A DNA stretch of 64,000 bases. Source: an uncultured Armatimonadota bacterium. GTDB taxonomy: Bacteria; Armatimonadota; Armatimonadia; Armatimonadales; Armatimonadaceae. Position numbers and translations under genes: made by a program. The notes beneath the pieces are model-generated. The model did not search any database. It was not told the DNA's origin and was given only the letters and a program-made list of their open reading frames with translations. This document shows, in pieces, positions 5,251 to 44,352 of the stretch; the stretch's first letter is position 1; the number at the start of each line of letters is the position of its first letter. The stretch is from positions 1-64,000 of the forward strand of contig CAIVZM010000028.1 in NCBI GenBank assembly GCA_903910385.1, read 5' to 3'.

Positions 5251-5292
5251 AACGATTGATCTTAAACAGGTCAATCGAAACACGCTGGAAAA

Positions 5293-5327
5293 TAAAAAGG
5301 ACGCAGGGATTACCTGCGTCCTTTTTA
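5293..5327. terminator. Bidirectional terminator between GH130 and ccmF
   Basis: A 14-bp perfect stem, aaaaaggacgcagg (5294-5307) with cctgcgtccttttt (5313-5326), and a 5-base loop. The A-tract and T-tract make it work on both strands, ending the GH130 transcript and the ccm operon. Confidence 0.9.
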
Positions 5328-5345
5328 TCTGGGTATCCGGCGTCA

Positions 5346-20306: not shown

Positions 20307-20340
20307 GAGAAATCCTCAAGAGAGGGCGCTATCAGAGTCA

Positions 20341-20383
20341 ACCCGTCGGGATCAACCGTTAATGGTTGATCCCGACGGGTTTC
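20341..20383 (+). terminator. Terminator between Spy-like and AhpD-like genes
   Basis: A 17-bp perfect stem, acccgtcgggatcaacc (20341-20357) with ggttgatcccgacgggt (20364-20380), a 6-base loop, then TTT. It could act for both convergent genes, although only the plus strand has a T-run. Confidence 0.85.
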
Positions 20384-26394: not shown

Positions 26395-27423
26395 TCAGGA
26401 AATCCGCGCCGGAGCGGTGGAGGCGCGTTCATCCAGGCGGACAGGCAATCTCCGCTCCTGCGGGACGTTTTCGACGCCGTCGATCAATGCTACCAGCATC
26501 TCGACTGCTGCTTCGCCAATTGCGCTGAAGGGTTGTGCAATCGCTGTCAGAGGAACGGGGAAACGTTCCGCTACTTCTGTGGAATCGAAACCCACAACAG
26601 AGATATCTTCCGGGATGCGTCGCCCGTGTTCCATTACCGTCGCCATGAACTCGCCTGCGAACGCCTCGCTTAGGGTATGGAAGACAGCGGTTATTGAGAG
26701 ATCCGCGAGGACGTGTTCCGTGAATTGTTTTACATCATTGGAAGCGATTACCGTTCCTCGAATAGCTGGATCGTTCTCCTGCGCCGTCGCTATCGCCGCC
26801 ATTGCACCCTGTAACCGCTCTTTCTGGTAGGAACGATGGATATCAGGTTCGACGCGAATCACAATATGTCGGTGACCCAGCGCAAGCAAGCGTTCTATCG
26901 CCAGTCGACCGCCGGACACATTATCACAATCCGCCAGATAATAGCCCTGAAGTTTCTCGGGCGCCGAGGAGATATAAACGGCGGGAATATGAGAACGGTG
27001 CAAATCATCCTGCACGGAGGAAGTCCAGACATCGCCCACGAGCAAGACGCCATCGGCGCTGCCGCCCAGAACATCACGACGAAGCGCTTCAGGGGTATCC
27101 ATGTGCGCTGTATACAGTACCAGATTACGCCCGTAGCGTTGCGCTCCGGCGACAATCCCGTCGAAAATCCTCTGATGGTACGGATCCATCTTCAGGAAGA
27201 TGAACGGGGTTACTAGGAGGACGCCGATGCGTCCGGTACGCCCGGTACGCAGTTCCCGCATTTGACTGCGCGGAACATAGTTCATGTCCTGAACGATCTG
27301 TAAGACACGCTGACGCGTCCCTTCCGGGATGCGGTCGATCTCACGACCATTCAGGACTTTGGAGAGCGTACTGAGCGATACGCCAGCAGCCTCCGCTACT
27401 TCCCGGCTATGAATACGGCGCAT
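26395..27423 (-). CDS. LacI family transcriptional regulator
   Basis: 342 residues from the ATG at 27423 (MRRIHSREVAEAAGVSLSTLSKVLNG), which has GAGGAA nine bases upstream. The N-terminus is the LacI helix-turn-helix with hinge (RQRVLQIVQDMNYVPRSQMRELRTGRTG). The rest is a periplasmic-binding-protein-like sensor (RIGVLLVTPF.., DGVLLVGDV, YYLADCDNVSGGRLA, HRHIVIRV, DISVVGFDSTEVA). Such proteins repress sugar-use genes until an inducer binds. The ligand is not deducible. It has a clear TATAAT promoter. Confidence 0.92.
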   Translation of the reverse strand: MRRIHSREVAEAAGVSLSTLSKVLNGREIDRIPEGTRQRVLQIVQDMNYVPRSQMRELRTGRTGRIGVLLVTPFIFLKMDPYHQRIFDGIVAGAQRYGRNLVLYTAHMDTPEALRRDVLGGSADGVLLVGDVWTSSVQDDLHRSHIPAVYISSAPEKLQGYYLADCDNVSGGRLAIERLLALGHRHIVIRVEPDIHRSYQKERLQGAMAAIATAQENDPAIRGTVIASNDVKQFTEHVLADLSITAVFHTLSEAFAGEFMATVMEHGRRIPEDISVVGFDSTEVAERFPVPLTAIAQPFSAIGEAAVEMLVALIDGVENVPQERRLPVRLDERASTAPARIS

Positions 27424-27494
27424 GAAAAGCTGTTCCTCTGAGACGCTTATCCCCATTAAATAGAAGGCGAACAGCGGAAAATCGCTTGCCGCCG

Positions 27495-28637: not shown

Positions 28638-29029
28638 TTATTATCACCAAAATATCAGACGGGAGCGTTTCCTCGCCCGTTCCGTATTTCCTGTTACATA
28701 CCATTTCTTCTGTAATGAAGGGGAAGCGCTTTGCCCGGGACGGAATATCGATGTTCCAAATCCCGATCCATATCTGCAACAGAGAGAAGCCAGGTTTCAG
28801 GAGTGTTTTGTAAAGGAAAATTCTCACATCAGGTATAACGATGATAACAGGCGATTTAACAGCCTGATCTGCAGTTAGATAACCTGCAGTTAGATAACCT
28901 GCAGTTAGATAACCTGCAGTTAGATAACCTGCAGTTAGATAACCTGCAGTTAGATAGTAGTCCAGAAATCGATCGAAGGAGTTAATTGATAGGTTAGGGA
29001 ACGTTAATGAGCTTCAAAGGAGATTTAAG
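28638..29029. other. Intergenic region upstream of the Crp-family gene
   Basis: The left part (28638-28868) shows nothing clear. The right part holds a six-copy 15-bp repeat (28869-28955). The crp-like gene has a strong AGGAG ribosome site; its promoter is not obvious and may lie within or just after the repeats. Confidence 0.5.
28869..28955 (+). repeat. 15-bp tandem repeat, six copies
   Basis: Unit ctgcagttagataac, starting at 28869, 28884, 28899, 28914, 28929 and 28944; the last is three bases short. The copies are identical. Each unit includes the CTGCAG palindrome. It ends 74 bases before the crp-like ATG and is not translated in any long frame. Confidence 0.95.
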
Positions 29030-29722
29030 ATGGATGACATTATCACGCACTTGCGCCGCTTTGAATTATTTGCCGGACTGGATGACGATTCGTTACGAGT
29101 AATCTCCGCTTCCTGTCGTCGCCGAAAATTTCCGCCGCGAACGACTCTTTTTCTACAGGATGACCCCGGTCAGACAATGTACATCGTGATTTCCGGGACT
29201 GTCAGCATCCAGACGGCGACCCCAGAGGGCGAGATTGTTCATATTGCCCAGCGTTCCGCAGGACAGGTCTTCGGCGAGTTCGCGATTCTGGATGGGAAGC
29301 CACGGTCGGCGGATGCGATTACCGGCACTCAGGCCAGCGAAATGATCATGATTGACCGTGAACCCTTCCTCAGGGTTATGAGTGAATCTCCGGTCATCGC
29401 CCTCAATATCATCGCTATTCTGCTAGATCGTCTTCGTGTTTATACTGCTCACACAACAGTTACCCAGAAGCAGGATGTCATGGGGCGTCTTTCGCTATTC
29501 CTGCTGGATCTAGCGCGCACTCTGGGCAAAAAAGGCGCTGGCGGCGAGTACACGATCAATCTCGGTATGACTCAGCAGGAAGTGGCGCAACGTATCAATG
29601 CATCCCGTGAGACAGTGACCCGCGCCCTGAGCAGGTTGGAGAAAATGAACGCTATTGAGAGGAAGGGTGGTGTCGTCATTCTTCATGATACGGACAAATT
29701 ACGGCGATTGGTCACCTCCTGA
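29030..29722 (+). CDS. Crp/Fnr family transcriptional regulator
   Basis: 230 residues. The N-terminal cyclic-nucleotide-binding fold covers about 10-125 (LFLQDDPGQTMYIVISGTVSIQ.., GQVFGEFAILDGKPRSADAIT, close to the phosphate-binding cassette). The dimer helix is at 125-150, and the C-terminal winged helix has TQQEVAQRINASRETVTRALSRLE. The recognition helix RETVTR matches E. coli Crp RETVGR, so TGTGA half-sites are expected, and two are present just downstream. No cysteine cluster is seen, so it is Crp-like rather than Fnr-like. AGGAG lies seven bases before the ATG. Confidence 0.93.
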   Translation: MDDIITHLRRFELFAGLDDDSLRVISASCRRRKFPPRTTLFLQDDPGQTMYIVISGTVSIQTATPEGEIVHIAQRSAGQVFGEFAILDGKPRSADAITGTQASEMIMIDREPFLRVMSESPVIALNIIAILLDRLRVYTAHTTVTQKQDVMGRLSLFLLDLARTLGKKGAGGEYTINLGMTQQEVAQRINASRETVTRALSRLEKMNAIERKGGVVILHDTDKLRRLVTS

Positions 29723-29740
29723 ACCGTGAGTCTGGATTGT

Positions 29741-29778
29741 TGTGATGTATATCACTTTCCTCGGTGATCTATATCACA
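29741..29778 (+). promoter_or_regulatory. Two Crp-like operator sites
   Basis: TGTGATGTATATCACT (29741-29756) and GGTGATCTATATCACA (29763-29778) are near-perfect TGTGA-N6-TCACA palindromes. Their centres, 29748.5 and 29770.5, are 22 bp apart, two helical turns. If the -10 is TACAAT at 29800-29805, the start near 29812 puts them at -63.5 and -41.5, the class II spacing. Confidence 0.7.
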
Positions 29779-29787
29779 TACATGATA

Positions 29788-29826
29788 ATAGAATCGTCTT
29801 ACAATATTGTTGTAAGACGATTCTAT
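29788..29826 (+). promoter_or_regulatory. 17-bp perfect inverted repeat overlapping the -10 box
   Basis: Arms atagaatcgtcttacaa (29788-29804) and ttgtaagacgattctat (29810-29826), loop TATTG. It contains TACAAT (29800-29805). With only three Ts after it, it is a weak terminator for the crp-like gene. A repressor site across the promoter is the alternative. Confidence 0.5.
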
Positions 29827-30003
29827 TTGGTATGTGGAAGAAGGATTATCACGGAGGGAAACTCCATACAATAGTTTTTCGGAGATAAGCACTTTGTAAG
29901 TAACGGGCAATGTTTGCAGACACCCTTCGCCACTACAGCGCCTGAGAAAAAGATCATTCCGTTACTTAAGTATCCCCTGACATATTGCAGGGGATTTTAT
30001 TTT
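29812..30003 (+). ncRNA. Candidate Crp-controlled small RNA
   Basis: Between the operator-bearing promoter and a strong terminator lies about 190 bases with no gene. The 3' part folds: taagtaacgg near 29897 pairs with ccgttactta near 29961, enclosing about 50 bases, and the terminator hairpin follows. A possible 18-codon frame starts with ATG near 29831 but has no ribosome site. The 5' end is inferred from the -10 box. The alternative is a long 3' UTR of the crp-like gene. Confidence 0.45.
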
Positions 30004-30005
30004 TT
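29972..30005 (+). terminator. Strong intrinsic terminator
   Basis: Stem atcccctg (29972-29979) with caggggat (29988-29995), then TTTATTTTTT. Only the plus strand has the T-run, although the next gene on the right is on the minus strand, so it ends a plus-strand transcript. Confidence 0.88.
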
Positions 30006-30030
30006 GTTCGTTGGATAGCGCGGACTGTCA

Positions 30031-31047
30031 TCATAGCGGCGCCGTTGTCCATCCACCCTCGAAGCGGTAGGGGATCGGAAGCGGAGCATTTGAAATATGT
30101 GGCTCCTCGATTTTGCGTATCAGCATTCTGACCGCCGACCAGCCCATTTCCAGCTCCGGCAAAACCATCGTATCAATAGCGCGGATTCCAAGCGCTTCAT
30201 ACGGGGAAACGCAGAATCCGATGATCGATAACGCACGGGGCGTCGAAACGCCCGCAGCAGTCGCCAGATGGATAGTCGCCTGTACCGCCTGAGTGTTATA
30301 GCAAACGATAGCGGTAGGGGCTTGCGACCCTTTCAGTATTTCTATGTTGGCATTCGTTAATGATTCCTGTCCCACATTCCCATGACGAAAAACGATCAAG
30401 TGTTGCACTGACTTTCTTGCCCTTTGCATTGCGGCATCATAGCCTCGGCGACGTGCGGAATCGCTATAGTGCCCTACTCCCTCCATCGTAGCATAAGCGA
30501 TACGTTCATGTCCCAGTTGCAGTAAGCGCTCTGTCGCTTCCTGACCGCCGCGTTCATCGTCGGGATAGACGCAATCGGCGCTCTGCATGGAATTGATCCA
30601 GACGGCGGGAAGTTCGTGGCTCTGGATCAATTCGATCATCGCTTTTGGGATATCTGCATTATAATTGATGAGCAGTCCGTCCGCCGACCATTCACGCAGG
30701 ATTTTGGGCATAAATCCCTGATCGGTTAACCGGGCATCCGGCACAGCGGCTACGGTTAGATGGAGATCATATTCCGCGGTTGCAGCAAGCAGGCCTGCCA
30801 GAAGTTCTGCTGGCAACAGACTGCGGGCCTGGTCTGTCCCACTTTGTAGCAGAGCAAGCGTTCCGGTGCGCCCCTGTCGCATCGCTCGCGCGGACATGTT
30901 GGGGCGATAGCCCAACTCGCGGGCGACCTGTAGCACCCGTTCACGCGTAGCAAGCAGGTGGGACTCGCCTTTGTTACTGAGGATACGACTGACTGTAGGA
31001 ACGGAAAGCCCGCTACGTTCCGCGATTTGTTTTATAGTGGTTCGCAA
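30031..31047 (-). CDS. LacI family transcriptional regulator
   Basis: About 338 residues. I start at the TTG at 31047, giving (M)RTTIKQIAERSGLSVPTVSRILSNKG, the usual LacI N-terminus; GGAAGG lies 8 bases upstream. A second TTG nine codons earlier would add an atypical leader. The helix-turn-helix is followed by the hinge (ARELGYRPNMSARAMRQGRTG) and a sensor domain (DGLLINYNADIP, YPDDERGGQEATERLLQLGHERIAYA, ALSIIGFCVSPYEALGI). The Ser/Cys at FCVS replaces the common FDD-type motif. Ligand unknown. Confidence 0.9.
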   Translation of the reverse strand: MRTTIKQIAERSGLSVPTVSRILSNKGESHLLATRERVLQVARELGYRPNMSARAMRQGRTGTLALLQSGTDQARSLLPAELLAGLLAATAEYDLHLTVAAVPDARLTDQGFMPKILREWSADGLLINYNADIPKAMIELIQSHELPAVWINSMQSADCVYPDDERGGQEATERLLQLGHERIAYATMEGVGHYSDSARRRGYDAAMQRARKSVQHLIVFRHGNVGQESLTNANIEILKGSQAPTAIVCYNTQAVQATIHLATAAGVSTPRALSIIGFCVSPYEALGIRAIDTMVLPELEMGWSAVRMLIRKIEEPHISNAPLPIPYRFEGGWTTAPL

Positions 31048-31247
31048 ATTTTCGCCCTTCCACTCAACAGACAAAGGGTTTTAGCTTCGATGGAAACAAT
31101 ACCCGACTATCAATTAAACCCCAGGTCAGCAAGAGGGAATCCATTTTTGAAGCGAGATAATTCGGGAAAAGGGATGCGGGGATGACACATCGCCGGGTGC
31201 GACTTCGCCGAAGCGGCATACCATAGGGAATGCCGCTCCAACGCCAA

Positions 31248-44316: not shown

Positions 44317-44352
44317 AAAAGGCGACTTCGCTCGAAGCGAAGTCGCCTTTTC
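44317..44352 (+). terminator. Terminator of the Ton operon
   Basis: Perfect stem ggcgacttcgct (44321-44332) with agcgaagtcgcc (44336-44347), preceded by AAAA and followed by TTTTCT. Confidence 0.9.

Follow-up and report, generated by a model that had tools for sequence, protein, structure and literature searches.

The 308-bp gap between a crp-like gene and a convergent gene for a LacI-family regulator in this Armatimonadota bacterium very probably contains an activator-dependent class II promoter (29741-29805), at which a protein of the Crp type is predicted to bind and to activate transcription. The product of this promoter is probably a candidate non-coding regulatory RNA of about 190 nt. 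As far as can be judged from sequence alone, a promoter and a terminator belonging to the same unit are both found within the intergenic gap (Table 1). Positions refer to the window, i.e. the whole stretch of 64,000 nt of DNA that was analyzed, in which the G+C content is 54%, compared to 39% in 29723-30006.

Table 1. Features of the gap and its two neighboring genes, in window coordinates
Feature	Position	Strand	Remarks
crp-like gene	29030..29722	+	230 aa; Pfam PF00027 and PF13545 above cut-off; recognition helix SRETVTR
Crp-type site 1, TGTGATGTATATCACT	29741..29756	+	centre 29748.5; -63.5 from predicted start
Crp-type site 2, GGTGATCTATATCACA	29763..29778	+	centre 29770.5; -41.5, class II position
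Perfect 18-nt inverted repeat, 5-nt spacer	29787..29827	.	arms 29787-29804 / 29810-29827; -24.2 kcal/mol, z -8.75
-10 element TACAAT	29800..29805	+	starts 22 nt after TCAC of site 2
Predicted transcription start	29812	+	from -10 position and class II spacing
Predicted small RNA, ~190 nt	29812..30005	+	no ORF >21 codons
Predicted internal hairpin of RNA	29840..29880	+	z -3.9 for excised stretch
Predicted 10-bp stem TAAGTAACGG/CCGTTACTTA	29897..29968	+	encloses C-rich loop ACACCCUUCGCCAC; z -1.3, not significant
Intrinsic terminator	29972..30005	+	ATCCCCTG stem (29972-29995), then TTTATTTTTT; U-tract on + strand only
LacI-family regulator gene, convergent	30031..31074	-	PF00356, PF13377

Both Crp-type sites deviate from TGTGA-N6-TCACA at a single position, with a centre-to-centre distance of 22 bp, which confirms the near-perfect pair described in an earlier note on this DNA. 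Taken singly, such sites are near chance level, since 23 were observed and 17.8 expected in the 64-kb window when up to two mismatches were allowed. This would agree with motif-like sequences having clustered by chance in an AT-rich gap that has no regulated promoter, but the frequency of pairs relative to a reversed control and the position of the -10 element both argue against such a cluster, which we consider highly improbable. The pair pattern, defined as GTGA-N6-TCAC-N6..11-GTGA-N6-TCAC, occurs once in the 4.47-Mb genome, against about 0.006 occurrences expected from base counts, and is present in 20 of the 291 genomes of the phylum, whereas the reversed pattern used as a control had no match across the same 291 genomes. 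Because this control was empty, the tandem pair must be regarded as being beyond chance.

The proposal that TACAAT serves as the -10 element of a promoter with class II geometry held up as well, given that the same spacing recurs at single sites of the host and at the pairs of relatives. By itself the hexamer is a 5/6 match, and an equal score is reached at about 1.3% of positions in the AT-rich gap. When all -10-like hexamers up to 60 nt away in either direction were collected for the 24 distinct pairs outside the window, 10 of 19 were found to start exactly 22 or 23 nt past the second TCAC (binomial p 9e-8). Similarly, at 48 other sites of the host genome an exact TATAAT occurred no more than 60 nt away in seven cases, in five of which it was located 20-24 nt past TCACA (p 7e-5; the single-site statistics cover 50 of the genome's 86 sites). 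Four of these five well-placed hexamers belong to perfect sites, and half of the perfect single sites carry one. Both binomial p values are approximate, as hexamer positions were taken as uniform and pairs as independent. A promoter scan of the region found neither a -35 match nor a sigma-70 type promoter on the + strand around TACAAT, and the lack of a -35 element is expected at a promoter that depends on an activator. The Crp-type site near -41.5 overlaps the -35 region, with the -10 element at the matching distance. In E. coli, class II Crp promoters with tandem sites have one site at -41.5, an upstream site on the same face of the helix, and a -10 without a -35 element; the layout here is the same, the difference being that the predicted transcript is apparently non-coding. 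It is the 22-nt spacing, shared with other pairs and with single sites, that makes an activator-dependent class II promoter very probable.

Another reading of the same segment would have Crp act as a repressor, as at Spot 42: the -10 element would be GATAAT (29784-29789), transcription would start at about 29796, and the two sites, then at -25.5 and -47.5, would block the promoter. GATAAT is a 5/6 match too, and the RNA would have a perfect 5' hairpin, GUCUUACAA-UAUUG-UUGUAAGAC (-11.3 kcal/mol, z -5.2). However, such a promoter ought to be strong without an activator, no -35 hexamer is present 16-18 bp away, and the -10 position rule derived from the other pairs indicates 29800, so that repression appears distinctly unlikely.

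Within the same family, tandem pairs were found in four of the six genomes that harbor the window-type regulator (the host included) and in none of the six that lack it. No pair was detected beside the inspected same-family homologues of the crp-like gene when their whole loci were scanned for the palindromic motif. That the pairs of relatives mark one conserved target was considered and rejected, because the downstream gene encodes a TPR protein in two genomes (G005/G009) and an unrelated protein in another (G007). In other families of the phylum (L069-L071, L081, L091-L095), very regular tandem pairs of the GTGAAATAATTCACA type with a spacing of 23 bp are located upstream of genes whose products are probably exported; the -10 element follows 22-23 nt downstream, and this arrangement is a recurring promoter architecture.

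A feature that is absent from the earlier description is the inverted repeat at 29787-29827, which overlaps both the -10 element and the predicted start and has no long U-tract. Perfect hairpins with arms of at least 16 nt (16-18) are found at four places on the contig, i.e. at 5292-5328, 20340-20381, 29787-29827 and 44317-44351. Convergent genes flank each of the first three, the fourth follows right behind a gene, and the three outside the gap look like bidirectional terminators. Since these other long perfect hairpins are at gene ends, the repeat in the gap can be read in the same way, and by analogy it is probably a (bidirectional) terminator or the 3' hairpin of the crp-like mRNA, which perhaps also ends the lacI-type mRNA from the opposite side. 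An RNA beginning inside the repeat, at 29812, would be without the left arm, and hence would not be terminated there.

With the terminator at 29972-30005, the + strand has two terminator-type hairpins about 170 nt apart, and the presence of the second suggests a transcript that begins past the first. Alternatively, the entire stretch could belong to the crp-like mRNA as its 3' untranslated region, ending in two tandem terminators, the Crp sites then serving some other purpose, such as a roadblock or autoregulation, or being relics. Both hairpins are indeed on the + strand downstream of the crp-like gene with no gene in between, and small RNAs derived from 3' untranslated regions are known elsewhere (PMC13250501). 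Nevertheless, the geometry of the promoter fits the rule of the other pairs, and the phylum's other tandem pairs are situated upstream of reading frames; a mere 3' untranslated region is therefore unlikely.

What the promoter drives is suggested by the sequence behind it. Among the 24 tandem pairs found elsewhere, 22 have an outward ORF of at least 80 aa within about 320 bp downstream, whereas behind the window's pair no such + strand ORF was found within 1500 bp. The frames in the predicted RNA all comprise 11-21 codons and none is preceded by a ribosome-binding site. The lack of a downstream reading frame, together with a terminator that has its U-tract only on the + strand, favors a non-coding RNA of about 190 nt. 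It would be conceivable that the RNA is instead a short mRNA or has a dual function, encoding 18 aa (MWKKDYHGGKLHTIVFRR) from 29832 or 21 aa from a GTG at 29834, given that ORFs are present inside the RNA and that dual-function RNAs under CRP control exist, namely VcdRP (PMC8672173) and Spot 42, within which SpfP is annotated; yet a Shine-Dalgarno sequence is absent ahead of both starts, and we judge a coding role very unlikely. The fold of the RNA as a whole is unremarkable (z -1.3).

Of what had been claimed for the region behind the promoter, the gene-free stretch and the strong terminator are borne out by the sequence, while the RNA of about 190 nt stays a prediction, as neither BLAST in the 291 genomes of the phylum nor a covariance model in 26 genomes retrieved a homologue. 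The DNA and covariance-model searches returned only the window itself, i.e. one distinct sequence, and the same-family genomes contained nothing alignable to the RNA stretch. The genomes searched include no further genome of the same genus, and for this reason the missing conservation carries little weight against the RNA. No Rfam family, including Spot 42 and CyaR, matched at its gathering score in the window; the matches below threshold mostly involved models of microRNA precursors aligned to the inverted repeat. A literature search on Armatimonadota found no reported small RNA. The host encodes a full-length Hfq (96.7 bits), which is present in 19 of 21 genomes of the phylum. A duplex-based target scan of 87 neighboring genes was discarded, since without accessibility it gives long, unspecific duplexes.

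The protein encoded by the crp-like gene consists of a cyclic-nucleotide-binding domain and a Crp-type helix-turn-helix, and is 27% identical to E. coli Crp overall. Its recognition helix, ASRETVTRAL, aligns with CSRETVGRIL, so the match to the E. coli helix that had been reported proved correct (SRETVTR versus SRETVGR). Among proteins of known structure it comes closest to 7pza and to M. tuberculosis-type CRP entries such as 3d0s, and the phosphate-binding cassette GE...RSA is kept (GEFAIL-DGKPRSA aligned with GELGLFEEGQERSA). The host has a second Crp-family protein, L031 (G000:C80:7990-8559), whose recognition helix, ASRESVNK, is close to ASRETVNK of M. tuberculosis-type CRP, and a homologue with similar flanks (L032) is found in G002. 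L031 may, from its helix, also bind TGTGA-N6-TCACA and could be the activator. Within the family, pairs are seen only where the window-type regulator occurs, which is suggestive but thin, and the adjacent regulator is placed only slightly ahead of L031 as the predicted activator. As for the ligand, a class I cyclase was not found in the genome, and there are only two matches to class III nucleotidyl cyclases (L053, L054). Active class III cyclases have the motif IGD; one of the two matches has SIGSS in its place and is without the second metal-binding Asp, and the other makes up the N terminus of a large fusion protein, which, judged by eye, looks as though it bears TIR. Since both look atypical, the ligand is uncertain and cAMP is a candidate only. 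Two genes for LacI-family regulators (26395-27456 and 30031-31074) flank the crp-like gene, each at a distance of about 3 kb or less. Upstream of the crp-like gene, by about 75 bp, the 15-bp unit CTGCAGTTAGATAAC is repeated perfectly 5.9 times (28869-28956); the copy number of this perfect tandem array in the promoter region could be variable and could affect expression of the regulator.

Among known systems, the earlier note had drawn a parallel to Spot 42 and CyaR. CyaR is an intergenic RNA with a Crp-activated promoter, whereas Spot 42 is repressed rather than activated by Crp (PMC4098024, PMC8672173). The comparison with CyaR is therefore fair in outline and Spot 42 is the wrong parallel, and neither gene is beside crp in E. 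coli. The candidate RNA resembles CyaR in being intergenic and having a predicted Crp-activated promoter, but CyaR is 87 nt long and lies beside trhP, while the candidate is about 190 nt long, lies beside the crp-like gene and has no sequence or Rfam match to CyaR; it would work like CyaR but falls outside the CyaR family. With Spot 42 (spf) it shares predicted Crp control and an intergenic location, but spf is between polA and yihA and the candidate has no Rfam match to it. AsCRP of E. coli is likewise encoded at the crp gene, but on the opposite strand over the 5' part of crp, whereas the candidate shares the strand of the crp-like gene and lies downstream of it. Mcr11 of Mycobacterium tuberculosis is located beside cAMP-related genes and is controlled by AbmR, the product of the neighboring gene (PMC8628891). 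The candidate would similarly be a small RNA at a cAMP-related locus under the control of the adjoining gene's product. However, AbmR is an ATP-binding regulator not described in PMC8628891 as belonging to the Crp family, Mcr11 is transcribed in the opposite direction, and the candidate matches no Rfam family at all.

Taken together, the gap between the crp-like and lacI-type genes probably contains an independent transcription unit. Crp-family dimers would occupy both tandem sites; at this promoter, which has a -10 but lacks a -35 element, the dimer at -41.5 would contact RNA polymerase in the class II manner, and the dimer at -63.5, on the same face two helical turns upstream, would boost recruitment. 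Read-through out of the crp-like gene would be stopped at the inverted repeat, which the RNA, lacking the left arm, would pass. With a start near 29812 and an end at about 30003-30005, the transcript would be about 190 nt long, structured and U-tailed; it could be a regulator in a Crp-type response and is possibly bound by Hfq. More tentatively, and with rather less than even confidence, we envisage a compact feed-forward module, in which a lineage-specific small RNA is encoded directly downstream of the gene for the Crp-type protein that activates it, and starts within the terminator of that gene. Should the RNA be transcribed, Crp-type control of a small RNA would occur far outside the enterobacteria as well, in a little-studied phylum in which Hfq is common. 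The rule that emerges from the pairs, i.e. GTGA-N6-TCAC sites 22-23 bp apart followed by a -10 element at 22-23 nt, can already be used to list Crp-type promoters of the phylum.
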